This document shows, piece by piece, positions 976 through 45,689 of a stretch of 57,339 nt of DNA. The position numbers and the translations under genes were made by a program. A model generated the notes under the pieces. That model did not search any database. It worked only from the letters and a program-made list of their open reading frames with translations, and was not told the DNA's origin. This stretch comes from a virus. Where the stretch lies: IMG/VR virus record IMGVR_UViG_3300035659_000014, positions 1-57,339 of that record. One strand, 5' to 3'. How positions within the stretch are numbered: position 1 is the stretch's first letter; the number at the start of each line of letters is the position of its first letter.

Positions 976-1620
976 TTAGATGTGCGCCCAACGTTGCCGG
1001 GCGGCAATTCGCCAGGCCGTCGCTGGGTGAATTCCAAAACTCGCACCGAGCGAATACGTTGACTCTCCGAGGCGCGCTCGTTCGCGCAATTCGTGGACTT
1101 GGGCCTCGGTCAACTTGCAGGACCATGAACGTGTTCCGCGCGGAGGGTTCGATCTGAAAGGTCGGCGATTTTCCAGCTGTTCTTTCGGCGTCGCCCACCG
1201 GCAATTTCCGGGCTCGTAATTTCCGTTGCTGTCGATCCGATCGAGGCTCATCCCGCTGGGCCGCTCGCCCATGTCGACCAGGAACGTCTCGAATCGTTCC
1301 CACTGCTCACAAACGGAGATCCCTCGCCCGCCGTAGTACTTAAAGCCCGGCGCGCGTGGATTCTTGCAACGCGACAGCATTGACGCCCACGAGCGATTCG
1401 CCCCGGTGCCGTACTGGCCGTGTCGAGTACTGAGCACCCTCATGGATTCACGACGAAGACAGCCGCACGACCGAAGGTTCCTGAGATTCTTTGCTGAAAG
1501 TGTCTTTTCGATTCCGCAATCACAACGGCAGCGCCACGATGAATGGCCGCCCGCCGCACCGACGCACGCCAGCACGAGCAGCCGTCCAAACCGATGCCCA
1601 ACAAGGTCCAGGATCTTCAT
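976..1620 (-). CDS. HNH/AP2-like homing endonuclease-type protein
   Basis: Likely site-specific DNA-binding or nicking protein of the phage HNH/AP2-like family. The N-terminal part has RFGRLLVL and a zinc-ribbon-like CRCDCG...SCGCL. The core is KYYGGRGISVCEQW, DMGERP, LDRIDSNGNYEPGNCRWAT and NRR, followed by a C-terminal helix-turn-helix-like segment (EAQVHELRERARLGESTYSLG). The ATG at 1620 overlaps the upstream nuclease stop as ATGA, so translation is probably coupled; a GTG at 1635 is an alternative. The gene sits exactly between the nuclease and recT, as expected of a homing gene that settled in an operon without breaking it. A second copy of the family lies at 39939-40460 on the other strand. 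Confidence 0.8.
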   Translation of the reverse strand: MKILDLVGHRFGRLLVLACVGAAGGHSSWRCRCDCGIEKTLSAKNLRNLRSCGCLRRESMRVLSTRHGQYGTGANRSWASMLSRCKNPRAPGFKYYGGRGISVCEQWERFETFLVDMGERPSGMSLDRIDSNGNYEPGNCRWATPKEQLENRRPFRSNPPRGTRSWSCKLTEAQVHELRERARLGESTYSLGASFGIHPATAWRIAARQRWAHI

Positions 1621-2420
1621 TTGCGCCAGCGGCACACCTCGAAGACGGGACAGTACTTAGAATGGCAAGTCGTCGAGCGTGGGTTCCCGTAGAAGAGTCC
1701 CTCGTGAATGAGCTTTGAGGCGTATTCGAGGACGCCCGGCGAGTCGGGGGTGCCGACGAGCAGGTCGCGCGCCATCGCGACTTCCCCCGTGCCGACACGC
1801 TGGCCCCTGGCGGTCTTGGCGACCTGCAGGCCGACGATCCGCGCCGGTTCCGTGATGGCGATCCCGGTCGCGTTCTCGGCCAGCAGTTCGTAGACGCCGA
1901 GCTGGGCGGCGGCGCCGGCCGTCTCGACGGTCCCATCGGCCCTGACCGCAGTCTTGCCGCTCTTGAGATCCGCGATGCCGTGTCCGTCGCCGATCTTGCG
2001 GATGCGATCCGTCTTGCCGCTGAGGATCAGCCCCAGGTCGCTGATCTCCAGCCGCTCGCACTTCACCTCGACGGCGACGTAGCCCTGCGTCGGGGCGATC
2101 TCTGTGCAGTAGCGGCCGTGGAGAGCTCGGCCGATGGACTCGGCTTCCTGCTGCCCCATGTCCTCGTCCCAGATCACGTCTTCCTCGGGCTTGTAGATGG
2201 CATCGACGAGCGCGCCGGCGCAATCGTCGGACTTCAGCCCGTCGCCTTTGATGAGTGAGTTGTCGAACACGGCCGTGCTCGCGTGCAGCGCCGTGCCGAG
2301 CTGCGCGTTGCCGCGGCGCGGGCAGCGCAGGTGCTTGATCTGACGCGCTTCGAAGCGGGCCGGGCAGTCGAGGAGATCGCCGATCGACGAGGCCCAGACC
2401 TTGATCGGAGTCCTACTCAT
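1617..2420 (-). CDS. PD-(D/E)XK exonuclease, RecB/Cas4-like
   Basis: 267 aa. Predicted exonuclease producing single strands for the RecT-like protein downstream. The N-terminus has the usual entry helix (IKVWASSIGDLLDCPARFEAR). The catalytic core is visible as GTALHAS, VEVKCER, GKTDRIRK and IADLKSGK, the last being the D-x(n)-(D/E)-x-K motif. The C-terminus CHSKYCPVFEVCRW looks like the iron-sulfur cysteine cluster of Cas4/AddB-type nucleases. The start overlaps the preceding small gene by 8 bp and the end overlaps the next gene as ATGA, so it belongs to the early operon. Biochemical polarity cannot be told from sequence. Confidence 0.85.
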   Translation of the reverse strand: MSRTPIKVWASSIGDLLDCPARFEARQIKHLRCPRRGNAQLGTALHASTAVFDNSLIKGDGLKSDDCAGALVDAIYKPEEDVIWDEDMGQQEAESIGRALHGRYCTEIAPTQGYVAVEVKCERLEISDLGLILSGKTDRIRKIGDGHGIADLKSGKTAVRADGTVETAGAAAQLGVYELLAENATGIAITEPARIVGLQVAKTARGQRVGTGEVAMARDLLVGTPDSPGVLEYASKLIHEGLFYGNPRSTTCHSKYCPVFEVCRWRK

Positions 2421-7174: not shown

Positions 7175-7378
7175 CTACGCCACCTTCGACAACTTCGACT
7201 TCCCGCGCATCGCGCGATCGAGATCGCTCACCAGGAACCGCAGCGCCTTCCCGTACCGGCATCGGGGCACGCCGTGCTTCTTCGCCCACTGGCGGAAGCC
7301 GTGCACGGACCCGGCGCGGACGTAGAACGCGGCTTCGGGTGCGGTCAGGTAGATGCCGGCGAGATCGTCGTGGGTCAT
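7175..7378 (-). CDS. Excisionase-like helix-turn-helix protein
   Basis: 67 aa from ATG 7378, which overlaps the Cro-like stop as ATGA. LTAPEAAFYVRAGSVHGFRQWAKKHG followed by GKALRFLVSDLDRAM is the pattern of MerR/AlpA-type small DNA-binding proteins that also serve as excisionases. Its place directly behind the Cro-like gene fits a lytic-induction role, but a recruiting regulator is equally possible. Confidence 0.6.
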   Translation of the reverse strand: MTHDDLAGIYLTAPEAAFYVRAGSVHGFRQWAKKHGVPRCRYGKALRFLVSDLDRAMRGKSKLSKVA

Positions 7379-7590
7379 GCCGCGCTCCGTACGAAGAACG
7401 CTTCGAATGGGATGCCCGTCTCCGCGGCAATCCGGAAAGCGAGATCGGGTCGCGGCCGTCGCTGGCCGCTGATGATCATCGAGACCTCGGCCTTGCTGAT
7501 GCGAAGCTTGCGGGCGAAGTCCGCCTGCGCGATGTGGTTCGCGGTCAGGTACGCCCGGAGCGGATGCGATCGTTTCCTTTGGTTCACCAT
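7375..7590 (-). CDS. Cro-like XRE-family repressor
   Basis: 71 aa from ATG 7590. Helix-turn-helix: AQADFARKLRISKAEVSMIISGQRRP. It is divergent from the CI-like gene, so it is the first lytic gene. There is no ribosome site, and a promoter -10 ends 9 nt upstream, so the mRNA is probably leaderless. A GTG at 7608 would lie upstream of the predicted transcript start and is less likely. Confidence 0.8.
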   Translation of the reverse strand: MVNQRKRSHPLRAYLTANHIAQADFARKLRISKAEVSMIISGQRRPRPDLAFRIAAETGIPFEAFFVRSAA

Positions 7591-7592
7591 AC

Positions 7593-7707
7593 GCGAACGA
7601 GGATACACGGAGAGCGAACGATATGCAAGAGCTCATTGTAAATTCTTCGAAACACCGTTCGCTATTGGATAACCCGTGGCCGGCCAGTGGGTTACGCGAA
7701 TATTTCG
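7593..7707. promoter_or_regulatory. Divergent operator region of the lysogeny switch
   Basis: Holds GCGAACGA at 7593-7600 and 7614-7621 (21 bp apart, two helical turns), the inverse CGTTCGC at 7656-7662, the dyad TAACCC...GGGTTA around TGGCCGGCCA at 7670-7694, and the palindrome GCGAATATTTCGC at about 7695-7707. These are likely sites for the two XRE repressors; which protein binds which site is unknown. Confidence 0.5.
7600..7628 (-). promoter_or_regulatory. Early lytic promoter (for the Cro-like gene)
   Basis: Minus strand TTGCAT (7628-7623), 17-nt spacer, TATCCT (7605-7600). The predicted transcript start falls 1-3 nt before ATG 7590. Copies of GCGAACGA overlap the -10 end and sit in the spacer, well placed for repression. 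Confidence 0.55.
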
Positions 7708-7734: not shown

Positions 7735-8181
7735 ATGATTGACGGAATGACGTTACGACAAGTGCTCGGCCGGGCGGTCAAGCGGCTGCTAGAGGACCGG
7801 CGGAAAACGCCAACCGCGCTCGCCCGCGCGATGAATCTGCCGAAGTCTCAGATGAGTGAATTTCTGGGCGACACGAAAAATGTCGCCATGCATCGTTTCG
7901 ACGTGAACGTGGTCGCCAGCTTCGTCGATCGATCGGCCGCAGACCTTTTTCTTGAGTGTGCAGCCGTCGCTGGACAACCGGATACGCGGCGCACATCCTA
8001 CATGCTGCCCTCAAGAGAGGATGCTGAGACGATGCGTGAGGTCTGGAGGCGGGTCGATCGTCGGGTGTTGTTTGCGGTAGCTGCTCTCACCCGTCAAGAG
8101 CAACGCACGCTACGATGCGAGGACGGACGGCCGCTACTTAAGGAGGAGCGGGCCCGCGAACCGCGCCGCAAAACAGGATAG
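7735..8181 (+). CDS. CI-like XRE-family lysogeny repressor
   Basis: 148 aa. The N-terminal helix-turn-helix (KTPTALARAMNLPKSQMSEFLGD, about residues 24-47) is followed by an uncharacterised C-terminal region without the Ser-Lys autocleavage peptidase of classical CI, so induction is probably not by RecA-stimulated self-cleavage. It is divergent from the Cro-like gene. Start at ATG 7735; a second ATG at 7747 is possible. It probably maintains lysogeny. Confidence 0.7.
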   Translation: MIDGMTLRQVLGRAVKRLLEDRRKTPTALARAMNLPKSQMSEFLGDTKNVAMHRFDVNVVASFVDRSAADLFLECAAVAGQPDTRRTSYMLPSREDAETMREVWRRVDRRVLFAVAALTRQEQRTLRCEDGRPLLKEERAREPRRKTG

Positions 8182-9891: not shown

Positions 9892-9941
9892 CCGCGTTCG
9901 CAACGCGGAGGCCCGGGGTTCAAGTCCCCGGCCGTCCACCA
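9892..9941 (+). other. attP core: 3' half of a tRNA-Ala(CGC) gene
   Basis: Anticodon arm CCGCG-TTCGCAA-CGCGG (anticodon CGC), 5-nt variable loop, T arm CGGGG-TTCAAGT-CCCCG, then the acceptor 3' strand GCCGTCC, A73 and CCA. The U at position 70 and A73 are alanine identity elements (G3:U70). No 5' half is present upstream, so it is a fragment that rebuilds the host tRNA on integration. Crossover is probably in the anticodon loop. Confidence 0.85.
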
Positions 9942-10391
9942 CTCATTTTTGAGGATTTCACTCAGGAACCCGATCCGTGCACCGGCCGAGAGTACTCCGC
10001 CTGGCTCCCGCAAGCTCCGTCATTCTCACCGTTTCAATCACGCCACGGTCACGGCGCAGCGCCCTCTCCCAGATCCCCCGTCCTTGCCCCACAGCGCTGC
10101 CCTGGCTGGCCCCCAGGGACGCGATCCCCTGCTGCGCGGGTCATGGTGACGGGGCGGGAGGTCGGGGCTTGGGGAGGCGGCGCATCTAGCGTCAGTCGAT
10201 TGCCCCTAGCGGTCCTAGCCAGCGCAAGCCCTTAACACGCAATGATTTGCGTGCGGCGCCCAGCTTCCACGGGCTTGCCGTCCGCCCGGCCACCTGCATA
10301 TACATGCATAAATCCCCCGGTGTTTCGGCCCCGCAACTTGCGGATTCCCGGCGGTAGATTTTCAGCGATTTTCGTCCTGCCCCGTTTTTCC
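9942..10391. other. Non-coding attP flank and control region
   Basis: No convincing gene. It probably includes integrase arm-binding sites, but I could not define the repeats. A perfect 18-bp dyad CACGCAA-TGAT-TTGCGTG lies at 10236-10253 and looks like a repressor operator; TGCATA occurs twice near 10300. Confidence 0.5.
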
Positions 10392-10420
10392 TTGACCTAC
10401 GGCTATCTAGAGGCTATCAT
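10392..10420 (+). promoter_or_regulatory. sigma70-type promoter of the plus-strand accessory operon
   Basis: TTGACC (10392-10397), 17-nt spacer, TATCAT (10415-10420). It gives a leader of about 45 nt before the ribbon-helix-helix gene. This is the best consensus promoter I found in the window. Confidence 0.7.
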
Positions 10421-10473
10421 GTTGGGTATGGACATCAAAGACGAACCGCCAAAGCCGGAAGGAGAACGACGCA

Positions 10474-10629
10474 ATGCTCTACGCTCTCAGGAATGTGTCA
10501 GCGGAACTGTGGCGGATGGTGAAGGCGCGCGCAGCACGCGAGGGGCGGACGATTCGCGGGGTGATCCTGCTCCTCCTCCAGCACTACGTGGACCACGGCG
10601 TCCCGGGCGACCGCCGAAACAAGACATGA
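10474..10629 (+). CDS. Ribbon-helix-helix (Arc/CopG-like) protein
   Basis: 51 aa, LYALRNVSAELWRMVKARA, then AREGRTIRGVILLLLQHYV: one strand and two helices, the RHH DNA-binding pattern. Ribosome site GGAGAAC. First gene after the promoter, so it may autoregulate the operon. Its stop overlaps the HNH start as ATGA. Confidence 0.75.
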   Translation: MLYALRNVSAELWRMVKARAAREGRTIRGVILLLLQHYVDHGVPGDRRNKT

Positions 10630-10979
10630 CGAGAGTGCGGGTGCGAGTCCGAGATCTCAGATCGGGGCGCTGGGTCCGTCGGGCCCGCTTGCTGATGGAA
10701 GCGTACCTCGGCCGCCCGCTCCTTACGAACGAGGTCGTTCACCACATCAACCGCGACGTGGGCGACGACAGCCTGAGAAATCTTGTGGTGATGACAAAAT
10801 CCGGCCACAGTAGTCTCCACGCTGGGGACATGCGCTTCCACGTCCACAGCTCCATGGGCATCACGTATGGGAGAGGGATCTTGGCCTATCAGCTCTGCGC
10901 TTGTGGCGCTGGGCGGTACATCGGCGATGGCCAGATTTCCAGGTGGTGCAAATCGTCGAGTTCGTGGGGGCCCAAATAA
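10626..10979 (+). CDS. HNH endonuclease (HNH_3 type)
   Basis: 117 aa. RARLLMEAYLGRPLLTNEVV followed by HHINRDVGDDSLRNLVVMTKSGHSSLH is the HNH_3 signature. A short C-terminal zinc-like CACGAGRYIGDG follows. Coupled to the RHH gene by an ATGA overlap; the pair could travel as a mobile unit. Confidence 0.85.
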   Translation: MTRVRVRVRDLRSGRWVRRARLLMEAYLGRPLLTNEVVHHINRDVGDDSLRNLVVMTKSGHSSLHAGDMRFHVHSSMGITYGRGILAYQLCACGAGRYIGDGQISRWCKSSSSWGPK

Positions 10980-11014
10980 AAACGACGCATATGGATGGGG
11001 CAGAGGTGAGGACA

Positions 11015-11308
11015 ATGACCAGGGACCAAGCTTTCCAGACCGCCCAGATGTTCCGCGACCTCGGCGCGTCGGCTTACGCCGAGGAGAACCAGAGGGTGAT
11101 CGACCACCAGGTCGTCAGCTACTGGACGATCTCGGCCAGCCTCGTGGACGCGCGCCACGGGGTCAGCGGAGATAGCGGCCGGATCGAGGAGCCGCTCGAC
11201 GCCCAGGCCGCCCGCGCTCTCGTCGGCACGATGCGCGCCGAGATCAAGCGCCGCATCGCCAGCGTCCGCGCAAGCCGTCAGACGCAGCGCGAGCTGGACG
11301 CAGAGTGA
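11015..11308 (+). CDS. Hypothetical helical protein
   Basis: 97 aa from ATG 11015, chosen for the site GAGGTGAGGAC directly upstream. Charged, helical and alanine-rich (MTRDQAFQTAQMFRDLGASA; AARALVGTMRAEIKRRIASV). No family recognised. The leader GAGGTGAGGACnATGAC is repeated before the next gene. Confidence 0.6.
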   Translation: MTRDQAFQTAQMFRDLGASAYAEENQRVIDHQVVSYWTISASLVDARHGVSGDSGRIEEPLDAQAARALVGTMRAEIKRRIASVRASRQTQRELDAE

Positions 11309-11347
11309 CCGTAGATGGCCGCCGCGAGGCGGTCGGAGGTGAGGACG

Positions 11348-11614
11348 ATGACAACCACGACGACACGACAAATCTGGTGGGACCGCGGCGGCAATACCCC
11401 GGCGTGGCCCTGTGGCTGGTGCTGGGGCGAATGTGAGCGCGACGACGACGGCAAGATCATCGAGAGCAACAGCGGACCGCTGGCCGGCACGGACTCCGGC
11501 GACCCGACCGAACTCCACGCATACACGGACGAGGAACTCCGCGCGCTGGCGCAAGCGCAGTTCCCCAGCGAGACGTGGGCCGACGTCGAGATCGACCCCG
11601 ACCCGAAACAGTAG
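11348..11614 (+). CDS. Small acidic hypothetical protein
   Basis: 88 aa from ATG 11348 after GGAGGTGAGGAC. It contains PCGWCWGECERDDDG, a possible metal site, then acidic helices (YTDEELRALAQAQF) and an acidic end (VEIDPDPKQ). No recognised family. Confidence 0.6.
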   Translation: MTTTTTRQIWWDRGGNTPAWPCGWCWGECERDDDGKIIESNSGPLAGTDSGDPTELHAYTDEELRALAQAQFPSETWADVEIDPDPKQ

Positions 11615-11675
11615 CCCCTGCCTCGGTTGCTGGCCGCCTGGACCAGCGCGGAGATGGAGGTCGGAGGTAAGAGCG

Positions 11676-11882
11676 ATGCGGGTACACGCGCCGCGTCGTC
11701 GAATTGTAAAAATTCTGGGAGTGCAACCAGGGCGTTCTTTCGGATTGCACGGTCGAGGCGCGATCCGATGGTTTCGGCTGGAGTGTGGACACGAGATATA
11801 CGCTGACGCATCGCGTGGCGTCCCGAAACGTGGCGTGTTGGGTTGCTACCGCTGCTCCCTAATCACGACAATGGAGGACTGA
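11676..11882 (+). CDS. Small zinc-finger-like protein
   Basis: 68 aa from ATG 11676 after GGAGGTAAGAGC. It has a basic N-terminus, then ECGHEIYAD and CYRCSLITTME, giving a C-x2-H / C-x2-C arrangement. Possible nucleic-acid binding. Its AT content is slightly higher than that of the neighbours. Confidence 0.6.
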   Translation: MRVHAPRRRIVKILGVQPGRSFGLHGRGAIRWFRLECGHEIYADASRGVPKRGVLGCYRCSLITTMED

Positions 11883-11967
11883 CCCTGTATCGGCTGCTGG
11901 CCGCCCACGGGATAGCTCGCGGGCGACCGGGAGCCGGCAAAGCGCCGGACATACTGGAGAGGACCGC

Positions 11968-12411
11968 ATGACGACTCAGCCCCACACCCATTACTGCCCG
12001 CACTGCGAGCAGCAACGGCCGTGCACCGCCGCAGAGGATGGCGGATGCATCTTCCCGGCGACGTCACCCCTGACCTGCGAGCCATGCGCTGCACGTCCTA
12101 TTTCTCGGGCTGCTGCGGTCCTCGGTCGCAAGGGCGGCCGATCCACCAGTCCGGCGAAGCTCGTCGCAGCGAAGCGCAATGCTGCCTACAACGGCCGGGC
12201 CCCCCGCGTGCCGTACACGACCAGGCGCTACGGGACCCCGTTCGGGTGTGAGGGCGAGCGCAGTGAGGATGTGCCGACGCTGCGGGCGGCCGATCGCTAC
12301 GCCAGGTCCGCCCTACTCGCCGGCCAGTCACTCGACGTGCTGCGCGGGGATGAGATCATTGCGCGGTGGACGTGTGGACCGGATGGCGTTGTCGGGCGGG
12401 TGAACCTGTGA
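11968..12411 (+). CDS. Hypothetical protein with N-terminal zinc finger
   Basis: 147 aa. The N-terminus YCPHCEQQRPC...CEPC looks like a zinc-binding module. The middle AVLGRKGGRSTSPAKLVAAK is a motif common in small phage and plasmid proteins, and the C-terminus is beta-like. Ribosome site GGAGAGGACC. Unknown role. Confidence 0.65.
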   Translation: MTTQPHTHYCPHCEQQRPCTAAEDGGCIFPATSPLTCEPCAARPISRAAAVLGRKGGRSTSPAKLVAAKRNAAYNGRAPRVPYTTRRYGTPFGCEGERSEDVPTLRAADRYARSALLAGQSLDVLRGDEIIARWTCGPDGVVGRVNL

Positions 12412-12617
12412 CGCGCCGACCTTGCGCCTGGCCGGGCTGCACGAGCCGCACGTCGAGCACGAGCGTGACGCCGCGCTGCCAGCGGCACCACCGGGAATAC
12501 TGGCAGAGAGTGGTCGGCTGGATTGTCGAGACGGGGCCGCGGTGTATCCACCTGGACGCGCCGACGATGGCGGAGATGGTGGCGGCAGAACAGGAGGAAA
12601 CGGCATGCTCGCGCTGA
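12408..12617 (+). CDS. Small zinc-binding protein
   Basis: 69 aa, GTG start overlapping the previous stop as GTGA. CAWPGCTS...CQRHHREYWQ is a clear Cys/His metal-binding set near the N-terminus. It ends inside the start of the ASCH gene (13-bp overlap). Unknown function. Confidence 0.6.
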   Translation: MTRRPCAWPGCTSRTSSTSVTPRCQRHHREYWQRVVGWIVETGPRCIHLDAPTMAEMVAAEQEETACSR

Positions 12618-13006
12618 GCGTCCGTCAACCGTACGCCTGGCTGCTAGTCCACGGGATCAAGGACATCGAAAACCGAACTTGGGCCACGCGCTACCGTGGC
12701 CCGCTCCTGATCCACGCCAGCCTCTACCAGCCGAGTGAGGATGAGATTCGCAGCATCGAACGGGAATTCGGGATGCTGCTCCCCCACGTCTACGATCGCG
12801 GCGGCATCGTCGGCCAAGTCACGCTCGTCGAGTGCGCGCGAGCGAGCGACAGCCGCTGGTTCGAGGGGCCGGTCGGTTGGCGCATCACAAACGCGAGCGC
12901 GCTGCCCTTCCGCGCGTGTCGCGGGGCACTCTACCTTTTCGAACCGAACGATTCCGCCCATATCGTTCGCGCCTTGGCCACGTCCGGCCAGGTTTTCCCG
13001 ACGTAG
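12605..13006 (+). CDS. ASCH-domain protein
   Basis: 133 aa. LALSVRQPYAWLLVHGIKDIENRTW and GPLLIHAS are the ASCH (PUA-like) signature; RGGIVGQVTLVEC and FEGPVGWRITNA follow. ASCH proteins bind RNA or hydrolyse modified nucleosides such as N4-acetylcytidine, so this one could sanitise or read a modified base. Ribosome site CAGGAGGAAACGG. Its 3' end overlaps the convergent ABC-GNAT gene by 76 bp. Confidence 0.85.
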   Translation: MLALSVRQPYAWLLVHGIKDIENRTWATRYRGPLLIHASLYQPSEDEIRSIEREFGMLLPHVYDRGGIVGQVTLVECARASDSRWFEGPVGWRITNASALPFRACRGALYLFEPNDSAHIVRALATSGQVFPT

Positions 13007-14057: not shown

Positions 14058-14636
14058 TCAGGAGACAAGCGCTCGGCACGTCAGGCCCTCCGCAAGAAAG
14101 CGATCGAGCAGAGCGTGTTGTTCGCGCTCGCCCTGGCACGTGACGACGATCAAAAACTGCTCGTGGACGTCCGCGTCCATGCTCGCGTCGGCAGGTTCCA
14201 CGCCGAGTTGTTTCAACATGCTCGCGTCGAATTCGAACGGCGTCAGGTCCAGCCCTTCGACGGCGAACTCTTTCAGAACGTCGAGATCCCACTCAGCCAA
14301 TTCTGCCGTACGGTTGTCGTACAACGCGAGCTTCGTTTTCTGTTCTGGCGTCAGACCGCGCCGCCGCACGGCGATGATCGTGTTGCCATCAGCCTCAACG
14401 ATCTTCAACTTCGTGATGCCGGCTTCTGCGGCCCCTTCGATCACGCCGTTGCCGGCCAGGATCTCGTCATTCTCATCGATGACGATCGACCGCGCCGCGC
14501 CCACCGCCCGCAGAGAATCGGAGATCATGCCGATGTTCTTCGACGTGTGCTTGCGGGCGTTGCGCGGATCGGGTTTCAGATCCTTGATGTGTGCCGGCTC
14601 GCGCCGATCCGCCGATTTCGCGGTCTTCTTCTGCAT
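14058..14636 (-). CDS. ParB/Srx-fold protein
   Basis: 192 aa. IKDLKPDPRNARKHTSKNIG, GAARSIVIDENDEILAGNGVIEGA and LYDNRTAELAEWD form the ParB/sulfiredoxin nuclease fold. No centromere-binding HTH or ParA is nearby, so plasmid-type partition is unlikely. Phage ParB-like proteins often accompany DNA-modification enzymes, and the next gene is an ABC-GNAT fusion. The C-terminus FLIVVTCQGEREQHALLDRF looks like a separate small domain. Confidence 0.85.
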   Translation of the reverse strand: MQKKTAKSADRREPAHIKDLKPDPRNARKHTSKNIGMISDSLRAVGAARSIVIDENDEILAGNGVIEGAAEAGITKLKIVEADGNTIIAVRRRGLTPEQKTKLALYDNRTAELAEWDLDVLKEFAVEGLDLTPFEFDASMLKQLGVEPADASMDADVHEQFLIVVTCQGEREQHALLDRFLAEGLTCRALVS

Positions 14637-16704: not shown

Positions 16705-18212
16705 CACGTCTCCCAGCCGAAGTACTTCTCAACCCAGCCCTTTTTCGGCGCCGGCCTCGGGATCGGTGCGGGCGGTGGCTCCACAACCGGAGGCGGCACA
16801 ACAACCGGCGGGATCGGGTCCGGCTGCGGCTCCGGGATCGGTTCGGGTCCCGGCGCCGGCGGCAGATCAATCGCCGGTTCGCCTTCGACGGCGGCCGCGA
16901 TCGCCTCGTACCACGGGATCATCGCGGGGTGCTGCCCGGTCCCCCCGAGGCGATCGGGTCCCGAGAAAAACAGCAGCGCCACGATCTGCGGATGCGCCCG
17001 CGCGACCTCCGGGTAGACCGCGAGCAGCCCCACCAGCGGCGCCTCGCGTGTCCAGCCGTTGTTCTCCCGGTTCGTGCGCCGGTCGTACATCTGGCAGAGC
17101 AGGACCACGGGCGTCCCCTGTGGTACCTGCATTAACTTCTCTTCGCAGTAGACCTTCAGCGCCGCACGCGCCTCCGCGACGGTTGCGGGTCCGGGCGGTG
17201 GCAGGTACGCATAGATGCCCATCCACGTCTCGCCGATCGGCGTCATCCAGATAGTACTGTCAGCGCCAAGTTTGGCGATCGGCATCGCGTCACGCCGGCG
17301 TACAAGCCAGCCCGTCGGTCCAAACTCGCAGTTTCCCCCCAGCGTACGCCCTGCATCCTTGTAAGCGCCGATCCAGAGCGGGCGAAGCGGTGCGATCTCT
17401 CCAGGCTGCGGGACCGGAATCACCTCAGCCGGCGGCACGTAGACGGGATCGGCGACGTAGGGCGGCTGGCAGACCGCAAAGAGGATCGGGCCGAACTGCT
17501 CCCCCATCCGGGCGACGACCAGGCATTCCGCGCTGTCACCGCTGACGTGCGGCTCCATCGCGGGATCCCGGCGATCCAGCGTCGTCACGAGGCCATCGAC
17601 GGCGAGCAGCAGGCCCGGCTCAGCCGGTGCGCCCCTGCCCTGCCCGACAACCACATCATGCGATGCGCAGGGAAACCCGAACCAGCGCCCGTTGATCTCG
17701 CTGCCGTGCTCCGGGTAGACGACCGGCTGGCCGGCCGCATCGAAGTGCGAGGACCCCGAAGAAGTCATCACGTGCGAGCCGGTCGTACTCGAGACCGACA
17801 AGCCGTCCTCTGAGATCCGCCAGCGCGCGTGCTGCGTCCCGTTGAAGGGCACGGCGAGGTCGAAGGCGTCACCATCCCAGCGCACGATCGGCCGCGTGGC
17901 GCAGTGCCCCATGTTCGGCAGGAACCCGCGCGTCGAGAGCCAGACCACGGCATCATCGCTGCCCGACTGCGATTGCCCGGCGATGCAGATCACGTCACGT
18001 GGCGACATGGCGATCCGCTGCAACCCAAGACCATCCGGCGGGTGCAGGCGCGGGTGAAACAGTTTGCTGAAGGTATTCGCCGCGTCCTCGCGATCGATGA
18101 CAAGGTTCGGCTCCGTGCCCGGCGCGTCCGTCCACGCGCGTACGATGCGGCCCTGGCTGTCGAAGCAGCCGTCGCCGTACATGCCGAGCACTTCAGACGA
18201 GCGGACAATCAT
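16704..18212 (-). CDS. Large lysis/tail-region protein of unknown function
   Basis: 502 aa. The N-terminal about 260 residues are beta-rich with repeated WDGDAF, HARWRISEDGL and GRWFGFP patterns suggesting a propeller-like fold. Residues about 270-440 (RPLWIGAYKDAG, VVLLCQMYDRRTN, LVGLLAVYPEVAR) could be an enzyme-like alpha/beta barrel. A Pro-rich linker of about 45 residues leads to GWVEKYFGWE. Candidates are a receptor-binding or glycan-degrading virion protein. No catalytic motif can be named. Confidence 0.6.
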   Translation of the reverse strand: MIVRSSEVLGMYGDGCFDSQGRIVRAWTDAPGTEPNLVIDREDAANTFSKLFHPRLHPPDGLGLQRIAMSPRDVICIAGQSQSGSDDAVVWLSTRGFLPNMGHCATRPIVRWDGDAFDLAVPFNGTQHARWRISEDGLSVSSTTGSHVMTSSGSSHFDAAGQPVVYPEHGSEINGRWFGFPCASHDVVVGQGRGAPAEPGLLLAVDGLVTTLDRRDPAMEPHVSGDSAECLVVARMGEQFGPILFAVCQPPYVADPVYVPPAEVIPVPQPGEIAPLRPLWIGAYKDAGRTLGGNCEFGPTGWLVRRRDAMPIAKLGADSTIWMTPIGETWMGIYAYLPPPGPATVAEARAALKVYCEEKLMQVPQGTPVVLLCQMYDRRTNRENNGWTREAPLVGLLAVYPEVARAHPQIVALLFFSGPDRLGGTGQHPAMIPWYEAIAAAVEGEPAIDLPPAPGPEPIPEPQPDPIPPVVVPPPVVEPPPAPIPRPAPKKGWVEKYFGWET

Positions 18213-30115: not shown

Positions 30116-30191
30116 TGGTAGCGGGCGCAGGAATTGAACCTGCCGTAAGACGGGTATGAGCCGTCCATGTCCACCAGTTCATCTGCCCGCG
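30116..30191 (-). tRNA. tRNA-Met (anticodon CAT)
   Basis: 76 nt including encoded CCA. Anticodon arm GACGG-CTCATAC-CCGTC, variable loop TTACG, T arm GCAGG-TTCAATT-CCTGC, acceptor CGCGGGC with GCCCGCT: six pairs plus a C1-U72 mismatch, A73. A 1:72 mismatch is a hallmark of initiator tRNA, but the anticodon stem lacks three consecutive G-C pairs and position 8 is not U. It lies between tail tube and chaperone on the late strand. It could also be a CAU-Ile tRNA after lysidine modification. Confidence 0.8.
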
Positions 30192-31685: not shown

Positions 31686-32545
31686 CAGGCACGCTCCAAT
31701 CGCCACCCACCGCCGACCTGTTCGCTCGTCTGGTCAGCCTCGGCGGAGGAAATCTGCTCGGATTCGTCGGTATCGAACTCGCCGCCGATCAACGGCAGCA
31801 CGCGCTCCAGGGCGAGCCCCGCTTCCTTGCCGTAGTAGTCGGCCTTGTCCTGCCAGGGCCCATCCGCGCCGGTCGGGGCCTCGGCCATGATGAGGTGTAG
31901 GGTCCGCAGGGCGGCCGCCGCCCGCAACAGGGAGGCCCGCAGCACGGCCATCTGGCCGGCCTTGGCGCCCGCAGGCGAGGCGTTCGCGGTGACCTTGACC
32001 CAGTACCGGCCTACCGAGCCGTTGACCGCCCGGGGGCTCCAGTCGGCCGGCAGGGCCCATGTCACGGCGCCCCCACCGGAGAGGGTCTTCCCCGTCGCCA
32101 CGATCGTCCCGTCCATGATTGTCAGGGCCTTCCACGCACCGCTCCAGTACGCCACGGCGAGCGTGGCGGTCGAGGTCGAAACGGCATCGGCCAGCCGGCA
32201 GAACAGCCCGCGGAAGGGTTCCTGCGAGCCGACGTAGAGCGCGTCGGTCGCCGGTGTCGTGATGATGGTCGCAAGATCGAGGTCGTCCTCGGTCTGGCTG
32301 GAGGCCGCCGCGGTGTAATCGCCGTACACGCCAGCGGTGCAACCGAACACCTGGTCGGCTTCGAACCGGGTCCGGAGGCGTTGAGGCGCGAAGCCGTTCG
32401 CCCGCAGGACCGGGTAGAGCCAGTCTTCGAGCGCCTTGGTGCGCTTGGCAAGCCAGGTCGTCTGGCCGAACTTCGTCAGGATGGTGGACTCGTAATCGAC
32501 GAGATCCTGATCGGAGACGAGGTCGTTCGGGTGCCAGCTACTCAT
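31685..32545 (-). CDS. Head-tail connector (adaptor) protein
   Basis: 286 aa. The N-terminus (PNDLVSDQDLVDYESTIL; KALEDWLYPVLRANG) and C-terminus (LLRAAAALRTLHLIMAEA) look like a gp6/gp15-type helical connector, split by a beta-rich insertion (TLAVAYWSGAWKALTIMDG, VNGSVGRYWVKVTANA) that could be a virion-surface Ig-like or carbohydrate-binding domain. Site TGAGGA 11 nt before ATG. Confidence 0.6.
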   Translation of the reverse strand: MSSWHPNDLVSDQDLVDYESTILTKFGQTTWLAKRTKALEDWLYPVLRANGFAPQRLRTRFEADQVFGCTAGVYGDYTAAASSQTEDDLDLATIITTPATDALYVGSQEPFRGLFCRLADAVSTSTATLAVAYWSGAWKALTIMDGTIVATGKTLSGGGAVTWALPADWSPRAVNGSVGRYWVKVTANASPAGAKAGQMAVLRASLLRAAAALRTLHLIMAEAPTGADGPWQDKADYYGKEAGLALERVLPLIGGEFDTDESEQISSAEADQTSEQVGGGWRLERA

Positions 32546-32563
32546 TGAGTTATAATCCTCACG

Positions 32564-32773
32564 GTGATGACCGACGAAGACCGCGTCCTGCCGTTTCTAC
32601 CGCGGCCGCCAAGATCACGCGACATCATCGTTGTCGAACAACCGCACTCACCGACGCATCCCGTAATCGTGCGCGCGATCATCCCCTCCCCAAGTGAAAT
32701 ACCCGCCGACATCGTACCGTTCCCGCCTCGGGATCACGGCACGCCTCCGGACTCCTCGAACGGATCAACATGA
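32564..32773 (+). CDS. Orphan Pro-rich ORF, possibly leaderless
   Basis: 69 aa (GTG 32564 or ATG 32567), MTDEDRVLPFLPRPP, then IIVVEQPHSPTHPVIVRAII. It occupies the only gap between two minus-strand head genes. A perfect TATAAT at 32551-32556 ends exactly 7 nt before the GTG, so a leaderless transcript is possible; no good -35. It overlaps the convergent glycosyltransferase by 40 bp. Tentative. Confidence 0.4.
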   Translation: MMTDEDRVLPFLPRPPRSRDIIVVEQPHSPTHPVIVRAIIPSPSEIPADIVPFPPRDHGTPPDSSNGST

Positions 32774-35748
32774 ATCGACTCGCCCTCGATCTGCTTGCAG
32801 ACCTGGGCGACCTCATGATCGACGAATCGCTTCAGTTCGACCCCATCCCGCACCCAGATCCGTTTCGGTTTCGCGTGCCCGCCGTCCATGCCGCCATGCT
32901 TGCCACCGAGGGCGAGTTCGATCTCCAAGCCGCCGAGTTCCTTCACCGCTCGCTCGTACCAGGGCCGCGCGATGCCGTGATACTTGTCGGCCGGGTCCGC
33001 GAAGTGCCGCTCGAAGAGTTGAATCGCCGTGTGGTAGTACGCCTGCGCCGTCGCCGTCATGGCGCCGTTGACCGACTCGCGGTCATAGTCGGCCAGGTTG
33101 ATCAGGTCGCGCAGCACCAGCACGCCGCCCAGCCGGCGTTCGGGGAACGCCTTCCGGTCCTTCTGGAGGAGCGGCAGGTTGCGCTTCAGCATCTTCTCGC
33201 GGCGGATGCCTTCGTGCAGATACCCGAGGTGCGCGATCGCCACGTCGTGGATTTCGAGGCCCGGATGAATGTCCGTGTTCGCGTCCTGCCAGCCGGGTTG
33301 CTCGTGCACGCAGCCGAAGAACCGGATCTCGGGGACGCGCCGGAAGATCCGGATCGGGGTATCGGCGTGCATCGGTGCATCGAGCATCAGGTGGTTCTGC
33401 CGCACCGCATAACCCTTGAAGATCCCGCCTTCGAGGTACTTGCCGAGCGCGCCCGATCCCGCGAGGAATTCATCCGTGTCGATCCAGAAGAACCACTCGC
33501 CCGTACACGTCGCGAGCACCCGGTTGCGCGCACCGGCAAAGCCTTCGTCCTGATCCGCGATTGACCCGAGGCGCAGGATCCGCGCCCCGTAGCGTTCGGC
33601 AATTGCGATCGTGTCATCGGTCGAGCCGGTATCGCCCAGGACGATCTCATCGGCGATCGCCCAGATACTATCGAGACAGCGCGCCAGATCGAGCCCGGCG
33701 TTGCGCGCGATAAGGCCCACCGAGAGACGGGGCATCGGGCGGGTCGTCAGGATGCGCTGCTCGACGTCGCGCGGGCGAGCCGGACGGCCTTCCGCCTTGC
33801 GGTAGCGGATCATCCAGTGCCCGGACGCATTCCCCCGGTTCGTCGGGCCGACGTGCAGATAATCAACTGACACGTCCCGTTTCGCCCCGAAGACCTCGTG
33901 CAAATCGCCCCAGCCGAAATGATGCACGTGCCCGCGGAGGAGTGGGATCGTGCGGGGCAGGAGTTCGACGAACGGGCCGTGTGGAACGGTGTAGAGGATG
34001 ACGGCGCCATCAGCGACGAACTGTTCGAGATGGTCGATCGCCTTGTCGCAGGCCGCGACGTGTTCGAGGAACTCGCCGACGAACATCCCGTCGACCAATT
34101 CGATTCCGGCCGCGTCGGGACCGAGCGGCAGCGCCCAGCCGAGGTGACTGTCTGTCGGCGGGGCCTGGCGCTCGAAGTCCCAGACCGACAACTGTTCGAA
34201 GCGGACGCGGTCCGCGAGTCCGAGTTTCTCCGCCATCGCCCGAGCGCGCACCACGTTCGCCTCGCTGTAATCGACGCCGACGACTCGAATCTCGGGATAC
34301 TTCTGCGCGAGCAACAGCGCGAACGACCCATTCCCGCACGCCACATCGAGGACATCCTTGCAGCCAGCGAAGTGCGGCAGGACGATCCCCATGCGCCCGC
34401 GTGTGCCCTCGTTCTCCATCTCGACTTCGACGTCCTTGACTGCTCGCTCGCCGTAGTCCTCGGGGCCCTGCTCCTCGCCGGCAATCACGCGGCGGCAGAG
34501 TTCGTCTGCGAAGTAGGCTTCGCCAACTTGGTCAGGCGTCGCGCACTGCAATCCCTGCGCAAGGATGCCTCCGGCGAGCTGCTTCGCCGCAACACAATCG
34601 TCCTCGTGCAGCAGTTGTCGCAACACGCCGATTTTGTTCGCCTTGAACCGCGCCCGGAACGTCTCTTGGAGCCAGCCGTCCCATTCAGTGGCCAGAACCT
34701 CGAATGTGTAGGCTCGCGCATGCTCGCGGCCTTCCCGTTGCGCATCGCGGTAATCCCGTGACTGACGCGCGCACCCATCCAGCGCCTCGCAGACCGCGTC
34801 GAGCGACTGCGCTTGGTAATCGGGAGATTCGGCATCGCCATGAATGAGCGCCCCGCTCGGGACCGTCTCGGGCAGCGCGCCTTTGAAGGAGCCGACGAAC
34901 GGCGTCCCGCACCCCTGCGATTCCGCCGCCGCAATGCAACCCGTCTCCGCGAAATCCTTGACGCCCGGATACCACATCACGGCGGATTCGGCGATCGCCC
35001 GATAGAGATCGGGCTTGTTCAATTCGCCGAGATAGGCGATGCCGCCGACCTGGTCGTTGACACGCTGCACCTCCGCGTCGAATTGCGCGCAAATCTGGCC
35101 CCAGCCCTGCATGTCGTACATCGAGCTGTAGCGGCAAATCTGGAGCGTTGTCGCCGGATGCCGCGCACGCAGGCGCGGCCACATCGCAAGCAATGGGCCC
35201 AGGCCCCGCTCGGGCCGGCTGATATGGATGATCCGGTTCGGATCTTTCGTGACGTTCGTCGGGACCAGCGACGGATCGAACCCGTTGCGCGTCACGTAAG
35301 CCAAGCCCTTGAGTTCCGGCAACCGCTCTTCGTACTGCTGCCGCTGATACTCGGACACATAGACCATGCGATCGACCGCCCACATGATCGACATGAGGGC
35401 GGGCGGCACCATGAGCAGATCCTGGTTCCACAGCAGGCGCAACTTCGCCGGGATCCGGTGCGCGCCGAAGATCGGGAACATCCGCAGCACGCAGAACACG
35501 TCCCAATCCGTGAAGTTCGAGATTTCGACGATGCCCTCGGCCGGTTGCCACCGTACGCCGGCCTGGTCGGGACCGTAGCAGTCGGGATCGAGCTTGGTCG
35601 CCAGGATCTGGACGTCGTGGCCCTTCGCCTTCAGCGCGCGCGCCAGGCCCAGACAGGCAGACTCCGACCCACCCAGCGAGCAGGCGCCACTGAGGACGTC
35701 CGGGGTGATCGGAACCGAATCGACGTAGAAACCGATCGTGAGTCGCAT
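32734..35748 (-). CDS. Three-domain glycosyltransferase-methyltransferase-glycosyltransferase
   Basis: 1004 aa from ATG 35748 (MRLTIGFYVDS). Residues about 1-375: GT-B fold glycosyltransferase (GGSESACLGLARALKAKGHD; HISRPERGLGPLLAMWP; ETGCIAAAESQGCGTPFVGS). About 420-650: SAM methyltransferase (KDVLDVACGNGSFALLLAQK, VVGVDYSEANVV). About 670-960: GT-A/GT2 domain (LSVGLIARNAG, GDTGSTDDT, FWIDTDEF with the DxD-like site) and helical tail. It probably builds or caps a methylated glycan on a virion protein or the host envelope. Located between connector and capsid genes. Confidence 0.85.
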   Translation of the reverse strand: MRLTIGFYVDSVPITPDVLSGACSLGGSESACLGLARALKAKGHDVQILATKLDPDCYGPDQAGVRWQPAEGIVEISNFTDWDVFCVLRMFPIFGAHRIPAKLRLLWNQDLLMVPPALMSIMWAVDRMVYVSEYQRQQYEERLPELKGLAYVTRNGFDPSLVPTNVTKDPNRIIHISRPERGLGPLLAMWPRLRARHPATTLQICRYSSMYDMQGWGQICAQFDAEVQRVNDQVGGIAYLGELNKPDLYRAIAESAVMWYPGVKDFAETGCIAAAESQGCGTPFVGSFKGALPETVPSGALIHGDAESPDYQAQSLDAVCEALDGCARQSRDYRDAQREGREHARAYTFEVLATEWDGWLQETFRARFKANKIGVLRQLLHEDDCVAAKQLAGGILAQGLQCATPDQVGEAYFADELCRRVIAGEEQGPEDYGERAVKDVEVEMENEGTRGRMGIVLPHFAGCKDVLDVACGNGSFALLLAQKYPEIRVVGVDYSEANVVRARAMAEKLGLADRVRFEQLSVWDFERQAPPTDSHLGWALPLGPDAAGIELVDGMFVGEFLEHVAACDKAIDHLEQFVADGAVILYTVPHGPFVELLPRTIPLLRGHVHHFGWGDLHEVFGAKRDVSVDYLHVGPTNRGNASGHWMIRYRKAEGRPARPRDVEQRILTTRPMPRLSVGLIARNAGLDLARCLDSIWAIADEIVLGDTGSTDDTIAIAERYGARILRLGSIADQDEGFAGARNRVLATCTGEWFFWIDTDEFLAGSGALGKYLEGGIFKGYAVRQNHLMLDAPMHADTPIRIFRRVPEIRFFGCVHEQPGWQDANTDIHPGLEIHDVAIAHLGYLHEGIRREKMLKRNLPLLQKDRKAFPERRLGGVLVLRDLINLADYDRESVNGAMTATAQAYYHTAIQLFERHFADPADKYHGIARPWYERAVKELGGLEIELALGGKHGGMDGGHAKPKRIWVRDGVELKRFVDHEVAQVCKQIEGESIHVDPFEESGGVP

Positions 35749-39902: not shown

Positions 39903-39931
39903 TATGTCAATTCGAGCCGCCATGCTAAAAT
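39903..39931 (+). promoter_or_regulatory. Putative promoter of the lone HNH/AP2-like gene
   Basis: TAAAAT at 39926-39931, exactly 7 nt before ATG 39939; upstream ATGTCA/TATGTC is a weak -35. It implies a leaderless mRNA, as the gene has no ribosome site. Confidence 0.45.
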
Positions 39932-39938
39932 ACTGAGC

Positions 39939-40460
39939 ATGCCAGCACTGACGACCGTGAAAGACCTGACCGGACAAACCTTCGGGCGGCTCACGGTTCT
40001 GCGCCGCGAACCACGCCCATCGACCCGCGCCTTCTGGCTCTGCCACTGCGAGTGCGGGCGTACAACCGTCAAGATGGGCAAGTACCTGCTCTGCGGAGAT
40101 ACTCGCAGCTGCGGCTGCGCGCAGGTTGAGTGCCGCGCCGGCGGGAATCCGAAGCACGGCGGGGCAACAGGTGGCCACCTGACTGTCGAGTACATCTCCT
40201 GGCGCAGCGCGAAGGAGCGGTGTTACAACCCGCGCCAGCGCGTCTATCGTCACTACGGCGGACGCGGCATTCGGATGTGCGACCGATGGCTGCGCGACTT
40301 CGGCGCGTTCCTCGCGGACATGGGACCGCGACCAGCTAGGCACTCGCTTGACCGCTGGCCCGACATGAACGGCGACTACGAGCCCGGCAATTGCCGCTGG
40401 GCCACCCAGAAGCAGCAGGTAGCGAATCGCCGATGTTTGGTTAAGCCGCCTTCGCAGTAA
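39939..40460 (+). CDS. HNH/AP2-like homing endonuclease-type protein, copy 2
   Basis: 173 aa. FGRLTVLRRE, CHCECGRTT, SCGCAQVEC, then HYGGRGIRMCDRWLRDFGAF, DMGPRP, LDRWPDMNGDYEPGNCRWAT and NRR. Same family as 976-1620. It lies on the opposite strand to all surrounding head genes and overlaps the MuF 3' end by 20 bp, as expected of a mobile insertion. Confidence 0.8.
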   Translation: MPALTTVKDLTGQTFGRLTVLRREPRPSTRAFWLCHCECGRTTVKMGKYLLCGDTRSCGCAQVECRAGGNPKHGGATGGHLTVEYISWRSAKERCYNPRQRVYRHYGGRGIRMCDRWLRDFGAFLADMGPRPARHSLDRWPDMNGDYEPGNCRWATQKQQVANRRCLVKPPSQ

Positions 40461-41298: not shown

Positions 41299-42110
41299 CA
41301 GCGTCCCGCGTAGTAGAGGGTGACCGCAGGGGTTACCCCGTTGATGAGCAGCTGGGCACTCATCGCGGTGACCACGCCGGTCCCATTATCCCCGCCCGAA
41401 TTCGCGCAGGTCATCAAGGCGTGTGCGGCCGTGTTCCCATCGACGGCGGTCTTCACCTGAGCGGCGGTGGAGAGCACGGCGGACACCGAGCGCAGCGTGA
41501 CGATGACAGCCGTCCCACCGACGACGGTCACTGCCTCGGTCGCGAGTTCCTTGCCTGGGTCCAGGTATGCGATCGAGAGGCTGTTGCCGCCCGTACCCGC
41601 CGTCACCGCCGTGAACACCATGTCGTTGTGGGTGCCCGTCAGGACCGTGGTGTAAGCCGCCGCAGTCGGCGCCGTGAAGGTCAGACAATTCCCGCGCACG
41701 TAGCGCGCTGGCTTGTCCTGCTCGTAGGATTGAACCGCGGCCGTGCACGTGATGTCTCCCGCGGAAATGTCATACCAGGTACTCCCGTCGTTGCTGCCCT
41801 GCAACCGATATGTGCACGTCGAGGCGTCCGCCGGGACAAGCTGAATCGAGTGGTGCTGTGCCACGCCGGTATCGAGTACGTCCGTCTGCCCGACGGCGGT
41901 CTGCGTCGTGAACGTCTTCGAGACGGTCCCGCAGAACAACCCGCCATTCGTGGTCGCGCCGATCGGCACGGCAGCGCCATCGGGGCCTGAGCCGAACAGC
42001 CGCATGGGACTTTGACTGGCGAGCGGATGGGGCCAGAGCAGGATGGTGAGCAGGACGAGCACTACGGCGCTTGCCGCCAACACCGTCACTATGTTCAAGG
42101 TGCGTCGCAT
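41298..42110 (-). CDS. Membrane-anchored beta-rich protein between portal and MuF
   Basis: 270 aa from ATG 42110 (AAGGAGACGACG upstream). A hydrophobic N-terminal segment (LNIVTVLAASAVVLVLLTILL) looks like a signal anchor or signal peptide, followed by beta-rich domains (CTYRLQGSNDGSTWYDIS; DMVFTAVTAGTGGNSLSIAY; GTAVIVTLRSVSAVLSTA). A secreted or membrane protein inside the head operon is unusual; it may be a decoration protein whose N-terminus is not a true signal. Confidence 0.6.
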   Translation of the reverse strand: MRRTLNIVTVLAASAVVLVLLTILLWPHPLASQSPMRLFGSGPDGAAVPIGATTNGGLFCGTVSKTFTTQTAVGQTDVLDTGVAQHHSIQLVPADASTCTYRLQGSNDGSTWYDISAGDITCTAAVQSYEQDKPARYVRGNCLTFTAPTAAAYTTVLTGTHNDMVFTAVTAGTGGNSLSIAYLDPGKELATEAVTVVGGTAVIVTLRSVSAVLSTAAQVKTAVDGNTAAHALMTCANSGGDNGTGVVTAMSAQLLINGVTPAVTLYYAGR

Positions 42111-43729: not shown

Positions 43730-45162
43730 GACAGGTTCACCGGACCATCGGACCCGGACGTGCGCAACCGCCCGCCCGGGAACTCCACCGCGATCCAGTA
43801 GCCCAGGGCATCCGCCGGGTGCGTGTGCGTCTCGCCCTGTTTCTTCTCGAGCGCCTCGGTGCCGCTCTTGATCTTCGTCATCTGCAGCGAGCGCACGAGC
43901 GGGCGTGTCATGCAATCGCGCGCCGGCAGGGTCTTGCGAATGAAGAGCCGCATCTGTCCGAGCGCGTTCAGGAATGACGTGTTGACCGCGTTCAGGCGGG
44001 TCGCGACCGGCGGATTGCGCGTCGGGACCTTCGTCGTCAGCGGGCCGATCGTCGCCAAGCGCTCGCGGATGATCTCGTAATTGCTCTTTATGCTCGTGGT
44101 GGTGCGATTCTTCCCCGTCTCATCGCCGTAGATCACAATCCCCGGGGGCCACTTCGGGTAGCGCCGCACGATCTCATCGCAGGTTTCCATGACCGTGGAC
44201 CCGCCGTAGATCGTGATCCCATCGATGACACGCGCCTCGGGGCCGAAGGGCCCGGGCGACTGCTGCCCGATCACGCACGTCATGGGATCGACGTTGAAAT
44301 CGAACGTCAGGCGTAGCGGCAGTGCCGGCAGGATCAGTACGTCCGGGCGCCAGTGGACTTCCGCATCGAACATCGGGTAGGCGAGCGCGCCCGTCACATT
44401 CACGGCTCGTCCGCCCAGATAGACGAGTGCCTCGGCTTCCGTCAAGTGCGCGCGAATCTGGCGCACGAACTCCGGGTTCGCCCGCATCAGTTCGACGTTC
44501 TGCTGCGTCTCCATGACATACAGCCGATACTTCGCTTCCCGGTCGGCGCCGAAGTAATCCTGCAGGTACGTGATGCCCTCGGGCGTGCCGGCCGCCACCT
44601 TCTGCCGCAGCCGGGCCCGGACGTGGCGCACGCGCGCGCAGGTGTTGCGCCAGGCTTCATGGCTGATGGAATGGGGCTCGTCCGTCCCTGCAAACGCCAT
44701 GTTGGGACCGCGAATCCGCTCAGGCGCCTCGGCGGACACGAACTGAATTGGCCCGCCGCCGATCCATGACAGGACGTGCTTCGTCTGGTGATAGTGAAAT
44801 TGGTCGGCCGTGAGAAACCACGGCTCGCCGGTTGTCGGGTCCAGATCGATGAGCGTCGGCAGGATCGTCTCATCGACATGCCCGTACTCAGGGACGGTCC
44901 ACAGACCGGGCAGCGGCCGGTTGATCGCGGAGAGCCTGAGCATCTTCGCGAGCAACGTCATCGTCTTGCCGGCGCCCCATCCACCCTGTAGCAACAGGTT
45001 CCCGTCCGCCGTGTCGTCGTCGAAGAACAGCTCCTGCGGCGTGTCCGGAATGGGCGCCCAACGAAACGCGAGTCGGCCATTCGCGTTGATGACGGCCATC
45101 GTCAGGAGTCCCCAAGCCGCAATCGCCACGAGCAGCGCCAAGCGCACACGTCGCACACTCAT
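43720..45162 (-). CDS. terL: Terminase large subunit
   Basis: 480 aa. ATPase: Walker A QGGWGAGKTMTLL, Walker B region MAFAGTDEPH. Nuclease: RLTFDFNVDP, IVIYGDETGKNRTTT and THPADALGYWIAVE supply the acidic triad. Motor and headful or cos cutting enzyme. ATG 45162 overlaps the TerS stop as ATGA, but gives an N-terminal hydrophobic stretch (LALLVAIAAWGLLTMAVI); ATG at codon 22 would remove most of it and may be the real start. Confidence 0.9.
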   Translation of the reverse strand: MSVRRVRLALLVAIAAWGLLTMAVINANGRLAFRWAPIPDTPQELFFDDDTADGNLLLQGGWGAGKTMTLLAKMLRLSAINRPLPGLWTVPEYGHVDETILPTLIDLDPTTGEPWFLTADQFHYHQTKHVLSWIGGGPIQFVSAEAPERIRGPNMAFAGTDEPHSISHEAWRNTCARVRHVRARLRQKVAAGTPEGITYLQDYFGADREAKYRLYVMETQQNVELMRANPEFVRQIRAHLTEAEALVYLGGRAVNVTGALAYPMFDAEVHWRPDVLILPALPLRLTFDFNVDPMTCVIGQQSPGPFGPEARVIDGITIYGGSTVMETCDEIVRRYPKWPPGIVIYGDETGKNRTTTSIKSNYEIIRERLATIGPLTTKVPTRNPPVATRLNAVNTSFLNALGQMRLFIRKTLPARDCMTRPLVRSLQMTKIKSGTEALEKKQGETHTHPADALGYWIAVEFPGGRLRTSGSDGPVNLSWL

Positions 45163-45653
45163 TGCCCCTCCGGGGTTTTCAGCCCGCCATCCGGCAAGTA
45201 CCGGCCGCCGAAGACGACCGACGTGACGGCGATCGGGATCGAGCCGCCGCCCGGTCCGCCGATTTCAACGTGGTCGCGATACTTCTGCGGCTTCTCCGCT
45301 CTCAGTCGCGCCAGCAGAAGCATGTCCGAGTACTTTCTGACCGCTCCGCAGACCTTCCCCTGGTAGAACGCCGGCTCCAACCAGCCCTCAATCGCCCGTC
45401 GATCGGCTTCCCGCTCCAGCAGATCAGCCCGCTGCTCCCTGGCGTCCTCGAATGCCTTGACGTAGGCAGCATCCACCTCCAGCCAGTTGTAGTGCGTGCG
45501 CCGGCCGATTTTCGCTTTGAGACTCGCGTGGTAGACCGTGCCCTCCAGCATGTAGGCATCAAGGAATGCCCGCTGCAGATTTTCGGTGGTAGGTGGTTCG
45601 TGTGCCACGGAATGCGCCGTCACACGCCGAGCAGATTTCTTGCGCGTCGTCAC
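45159..45653 (-). CDS. terS: Terminase small subunit-like DNA-binding protein
   Basis: 164 aa from GTG 45653. Basic N-terminus, then a helix-turn-helix-like region (NLQRAFLDAYMLEGTVYHAS, IGRRTHYNWLEVDAAYVKA) and a helical oligomerisation part (ADLLEREADRRAIEGWL). Recognises phage DNA for packaging. No ribosome site; a -10 hexamer ends 7 nt before the GTG, suggesting a leaderless late transcript. Confidence 0.8.
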   Translation of the reverse strand: MTTRKKSARRVTAHSVAHEPPTTENLQRAFLDAYMLEGTVYHASLKAKIGRRTHYNWLEVDAAYVKAFEDAREQRADLLEREADRRAIEGWLEPAFYQGKVCGAVRKYSDMLLLARLRAEKPQKYRDHVEIGGPGGGSIPIAVTSVVFGGRYLPDGGLKTPEGQ

Positions 45654-45660
45654 GCCGATG

Positions 45661-45689
45661 ATCGTACACCCGAGTTGGAATAGTGTTTA
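45661..45689 (-). promoter_or_regulatory. Putative late promoter upstream of TerS
   Basis: Minus strand TAAACA (45689-45684), 17-nt spacer, TACGAT (45666-45661), then 7 nt to GTG 45653. Expected to drive the packaging/head operon from its first codon. Confidence 0.5.

Follow-up and report, generated by a model that had tools for sequence, protein, structure and literature searches.

Phage lambda produces a leaderless cI mRNA from its PRM promoter, and 70S ribosomes are able to read mRNAs of this kind. Lambda is named as the first leaderless case in a study of bacterial TA-led (leaderless) genes, which carry a TANNNT hexamer about 12 bp upstream of the start codon; the same study reports that an average of 13% of genes are leaderless in Acidobacteria (PMC3160421). 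In Deinococcus-Thermus, experiments on -10 motifs adjacent to ORFs have described a TANNNT hexamer placed a few base pairs before the ORF at a strict spacing, and an added -35 element raises output from these promoters (PMC12340547). Our literature search found no paper on leaderless genes in Acidobacteria phages.

The DNA examined here, called the window throughout, is the entire 57,339 bp (GC 64%) of IMG/VR virus record IMGVR_UViG_3300035659_000014, from an uncultured soil phage. Because it carries genes for an integrase, a divergent Cro-like and CI-like pair, and a morphogenesis operon on the minus strand whose first genes are TerS, TerL, and portal, its gene content identifies it as a temperate tailed phage. 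Two other features of the structural region were observed. A tRNA-Met gene (30116-30191, minus strand) lies within the structural operon, and a protein of about 1000 amino acids that by eye combines a glycosyltransferase, a methyltransferase, and a second glycosyltransferase is encoded at 32734-35748 (minus strand), close to the MCP gene within the morphogenesis operon; it is 45-63% conserved in most relatives.

Certain genes of this phage group appear to be preceded by a sigma70-type promoter that is fused to the start codon and that would yield a leaderless mRNA, an arrangement that concerns regulators and HNH genes and that is also common in Acidobacteria, the probable hosts. We place the probability of this reading at about three in four. 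As with lambda cI, a temperate-phage regulator gene would be served by a leaderless promoter, although the lambda gene encodes a repressor whereas here Cro-like and free-standing HNH genes are involved as well. TA-led genes likewise carry TANNNT, the first T of which lies 12-13 nt upstream of the start codon, have little if any ribosome site, and belong to GC-rich genomes, but they are cellular, whereas the layout described here belongs to phages, is restricted to regulators and nucleases, and often includes a good -35 element (PMC3160421). The Deinococcus-Thermus promoters have the same hexamer at a similarly short and strict distance, but they belong to a different host phylum and were tested by experiment, whereas those described here are predicted from sequence (PMC12340547). 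This kind of promoter is already known from other bacteria; the new details are that this phage group has it and that it is confined here to regulators and HNH genes.

In the proposed mechanism, a -35 element (TTGACA-like, N16-18) or an extended -10 (TGN) would act together with a TANNNT hexamer that ends 6-8 nt, and mostly 7 nt, before an ATG or GTG. Because RNA polymerase normally initiates 7-8 nt past the -10 element, a transcript from such a site would begin on or beside the start codon, its first base being the first base of that codon or lying 1-2 bases upstream. Ribosomes would then translate the mRNA by the leaderless route, with no need for Shine-Dalgarno pairing. Motif and spacing are read directly from the DNA, and the transcription start and translation route are predicted from them. 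The layout would serve self-contained genes that head their own short unit, including small HTH regulators, Cro/CI-type ones among them, and free-standing HNH nucleases, and structural and operon-internal genes would rely on ribosome sites or overlaps.

The initial annotation had proposed leaderless promoters for four starts in the window: TerS (TACGAT-N7-GTG), an HNH/AP2 gene (TAAAAT-N7-ATG), ORF 32564 (TATAAT-N7-GTG), and a Cro-like gene (TATCCT-N9-ATG). All four hexamers and distances are exact, and no Shine-Dalgarno sequence was found before the starts of TerS, HNH 39939, and Cro. A gene-blind scan with an E. coli-like sigma70 matrix ranked 114,538 positions in the window, among which the HNH 39939 site is 4th, Cro 7th, TerS 28th, and ORF 32564 61st. 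The top-ranked site, at 10415, had gone unlisted; it ends 7 nt before an HNH_3 gene that starts at 10428. A -35-like element 16-18 nt before the -10, or an extended -10, is present at HNH_3 10428, Cro, TerS (where the -35 is weak), and HNH 39939. The hexamer lies 7 nt from the start, within the 6-8 nt range, for all of these except Cro, where the distance is 9 nt.

The HNH_3 endonuclease gene (10428..10979, plus strand; PF13392, E 4e-6, above cut-off) is read from an ATG within a longer frame, and its promoter is TTGACC-N17-TATCAT-N7-ATG (10392..10430, plus strand; TATCAT from 10415). The sole sequence resembling a ribosome site, GAGG, sits upstream of the -10 element and therefore outside the predicted transcript. 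Promoter rank and N7 spacing support a leaderless layout for this gene. The stretch that follows the integrase (9900-12900), in which this gene and the window's best promoter are found, has low coding signal.

The Cro-like HTH regulator (7375..7590, minus strand; PF01381, E 9e-11) diverges from the CI-like gene (7735-8181, plus strand) and is preceded by TTGCAT-N17-TATCCT-CGTTCGCGT-ATG (7588..7628, minus strand), in which N9 separates the hexamer from the ATG at 7590. This promoter is strong, and we consider the gene near-leaderless because its predicted leader is 2-3 nt. TerS, the terminase small subunit and first gene of the morphogenesis operon (45159..45653, minus strand; phrog_4044, E 2e-35), has a GTG start at 45653 that is supported because the alignment begins at residue 9 (residues 9-144 against profile positions 11-147). 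Its candidate promoter, TAAACA-N17-TACGAT-CATCGGC-GTG (45651..45689, minus strand), has a weak -35 element. In L002, the nearest relative, no such layout was found ahead of TerS, and TerS is usually not a unit head in relatives. For TerS, the start is correct and the promoter is plausible, though not conserved, and a leaderless layout is possible.

The Cro gene bears on the alternative that survives best, namely that these are real promoters whose transcripts carry short leaders, or whose true start codons lie downstream, such that the mRNAs are not strictly leaderless. Its 9-nt spacing would suit such leaders, as would the cases at a distance of 8 nt, given that the choice of transcription start varies by 1-2 nt. 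Against this, the spacing peaks at 6-8 nt, as it does in bacteria well known to have leaderless genes (PMC3160421), and homology backs the HNH and TerS starts. We regard short leaders as rather unlikely.

Relatives of the phage were needed to judge how often the layout occurs. Scans of IMG/VR with the single proteins TerL, portal, and a large structural-region protein returned no relatives. An MCP scan of IMG/VR gave four matches, and an alignment built from MCP then reached 18 loci, opening the family; an MCP search in genomes found none. Alignments of two further phage genes, encoding the portal and a conserved protein of 352 aa, added many more relatives. A glycosyltransferase alignment was also searched, and contigs matching by it alone were left out of the statistics. 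With duplicates removed and the window excluded, the set comprises 55 contigs totaling 1.1 Mb; W denotes the window, and G- and L-numbers denote relative contigs. As a separate observation, parS-like palindromes (GTTYCAYRTGRAAC) occur in six relatives (G003 7642, L169 23, L215 1141, L171 4891, G136 3831, and G133 11899) versus none in shuffled sequence, and the window has a gene for a ParB-like protein (14058-14636).

A second alternative is that the layout arises by chance, since a few TANNNT hexamers at one spacing are expected from the hexamer frequency of the genome when starts are searched. The window itself favors this view. TANNNT-N7-RTG occurs 12 times; dinucleotide shuffles give 9.1±3.2, and 22 of 100 equal or exceed the observed count. 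TANNNT-N9-ATG occurs twice against 4.0 expected. The initial annotation had proposed this very count, taking a frequency that matches chance as evidence against its claim, and on the window alone that outcome would lead to the claim being rejected. An excess appears only after promoter quality or relatives are added.

Here, a strong promoter is a sigma70-like TANNNT site scoring 11 or more, and a start is an ATG or GTG that opens an ORF of at least 50 codons. Among the relatives, a start lies at exactly 7 nt in 12 cases versus 1.7 per other distance (P about 3e-7), whereas shuffled sequences give 0-3. Because one pair among the 12 is a terminal duplicate in G134, 11 cases are independent. At 6-8 nt there are 21 cases versus 5.2 expected (P 1.7e-7); with scores of 13 or more, the peak is sharper, with 15 among 61 sites versus 1.8 expected. 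A simpler -35 consensus count peaks again at 7 nt. The G134 copies (95-134 and 41734-41773), one at each end of the contig, are near-identical and each consist of an HTH gene with its leaderless-type promoter, a pattern that suggests a terminally repeated or circular genome.

ORF 32564 is the one site of the initial annotation for which chance is the better account. Its TATAAT-CCTCACG-GTG (32551..32566, plus strand) was judged coincidental: there is no extended -10 before it, and the best -35, TCGGGT, scores negative. The ORF matches no family and is not called as coding. Relatives lack it: in five of the six examined, 0-50 nt separate the two neighboring genes. The TATAAT lies opposite the GAGG-to-ATG spacer of a minus-strand gene at 32545. 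Lacking a -35 element, a family, and conservation, ORF 32564 was dropped and is not a gene on present evidence. Start codons in our site list are predicted, and some sites are antisense or in-frame internal; for example, W 47741 (a VRR-NUC-like frame) and W 48010 have N7 spacing yet were judged internal or coincidental. For the phage family, chance is already refuted by the sharp 7-nt peak in independent relatives and by conservation before HNH and HTH homologues, although it could still account for TerS alone. As an explanation of the whole pattern, it is very unlikely.

The layout is concentrated in particular gene types. The genes with this layout are mainly small HTH regulators (a divergent pair in G001 at 17361+ and 17237-, N7 each, and cases in G134, G139, G003, and G135) and HNH-like nucleases (G138, G133, G005, W 10428, and W 39939); one gene resembles an IS1-type transposase. 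Pfam supports the HTH and HNH_3 identities among the cases tested, and the list contains no structural genes except doubtful calls. A small DNA-binding family in G130, G131, and G136 keeps spacings of N6, N7, and N7 despite diverged promoters.

The gene caller used in the analysis misses small regulators and HNH genes, which makes gene-based phage histograms insensitive, and gene-blind promoter scans were therefore used. Called head genes of the relatives (n=241) have the hexamer at 6-8 nt in 11 cases versus 6.6 expected (P 0.07), and internal genes have no excess (5 versus 7.4 expected). Thus, the proposal that leaderless promoters mark unit heads was too broad. Because the list is dominated by HTH and HNH genes and internal genes lack an excess, the layout characterizes regulatory and mobile genes that stand alone. 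The initial annotation recognized a real phenomenon from too little data: HNH 39939 stands, as do the HTH and HNH genes of the relatives, Cro is near-leaderless, and one case was false, the best case was missed, and the pattern was over-generalized to unit heads.

Among the HNH nucleases is the free-standing AP2-like/HNH endonuclease gene (39939..40460, plus strand; phrog_374, E 4e-53), which is oriented opposite to the morphogenesis operon. Its leaderless-type promoter (39909..39941, plus strand), indicated by sequence, scan rank, and conservation, has an extended -10, (TGC)TAAAAT, at 39926-39931, followed by the spacer ACTGAGC and the ATG at 39939; the -35 is weak. Homologues occur in 1008 phage records, and alignments that begin at residues 1-8 support the start codon. 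Within the phage group, TANNNT lies 5-8 nt before the start in six of eight homologues (W, G133, G005, L127, L146, and L018, the last counted through an upstream domain copy). Homologues from phages of other hosts have the layout in 0 of 12 cases, most having a ribosome site instead (Fisher P 7e-4), and we therefore rejected the layout as a property of this gene family across all phages. A second AP2/HNH gene in the window (976-1635, minus strand; 44% identical to the 39939 protein), which overlaps an upstream gene in the early operon, has no TANNNT before its start near 1626.

A 36-bp block that begins near 39907, in the -35 region, and ends shortly after the ATG is 92% identical between W and G133, whose two promoters are not independent cases; in the coding DNA, which is less conserved than this block, only one further segment is alignable. 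Such a block could move with the gene, being kept as an operator or as part of a homing cassette and not for promoter activity, but this is highly improbable given that the element matches -10/extended -10 spacing, that the remaining homologues keep only TANNNT and its distance without the block, and that unrelated HTH genes have the layout too. A leaderless layout for HNH 39939 is well supported by these sequence comparisons.

Regarding the host, alignment of TerL against 84,980 genomes gave a single match, 57% identical, on an Acidobacteria MAG contig that carries phage genes. A search for the portal restricted to Acidobacteriota found it in 3 of 396 genomes, and one complete Acidobacteriota genome holds a portal (56% identical to that of G134) and an integrase (52% to L195) between ordinary chromosomal genes. 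We infer that the phage group most likely infects Acidobacteriota; we consider this good for the group as a whole but tentative for the window, whose own host link is only the TerL relative at 57%.

In that complete genome, 24 of 134 heads (18%) have TANNNT at a distance of 6-8 nt, versus 5.1 (4%) expected (P 1e-9), as do 9 of 94 internal genes, for which 1.1 are expected. Two further genomes of the same class have a weaker signal. Across 60 Acidobacteriota genomes, TTGACN-N17-TANNNT is followed by ATG after N7 rather than N12 at a ratio of 183:109. Sites with a strong -35 plus TANNNT are rare in the host samples, and so the strong-promoter test says little there. Because Acidobacteriota genes often have the same layout, the phage would be following host practice, and the hint that the host uses leaderless mRNAs widely is likewise supported by inference from the relatives in Acidobacteriota genomes. 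Leaderless layouts have been reported for mycobacterial toxin-antitoxin genes, and small ribbon-helix-helix antitoxin-like proteins follow two host leaderless-type promoters that are among the strongest in the G065 sample (L081-L100).

It is tempting to speculate, though we consider it doubtful, that this Acidobacteriota phage lineage splits its genes by translation route, with leaderless expression for switch regulators and mobile nucleases and ribosome sites otherwise, such that switch genes could use 70S ribosomes when canonical initiation is limiting. More broadly, the findings predict, in testable form, where transcription and translation begin in an uncultured group of soil phages, correct gene starts that are overlooked by callers based on ribosome sites, and extend the record of leaderless expression to phages of a poorly studied phylum. 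They also point to a host-specific expression habit that could aid host assignment.
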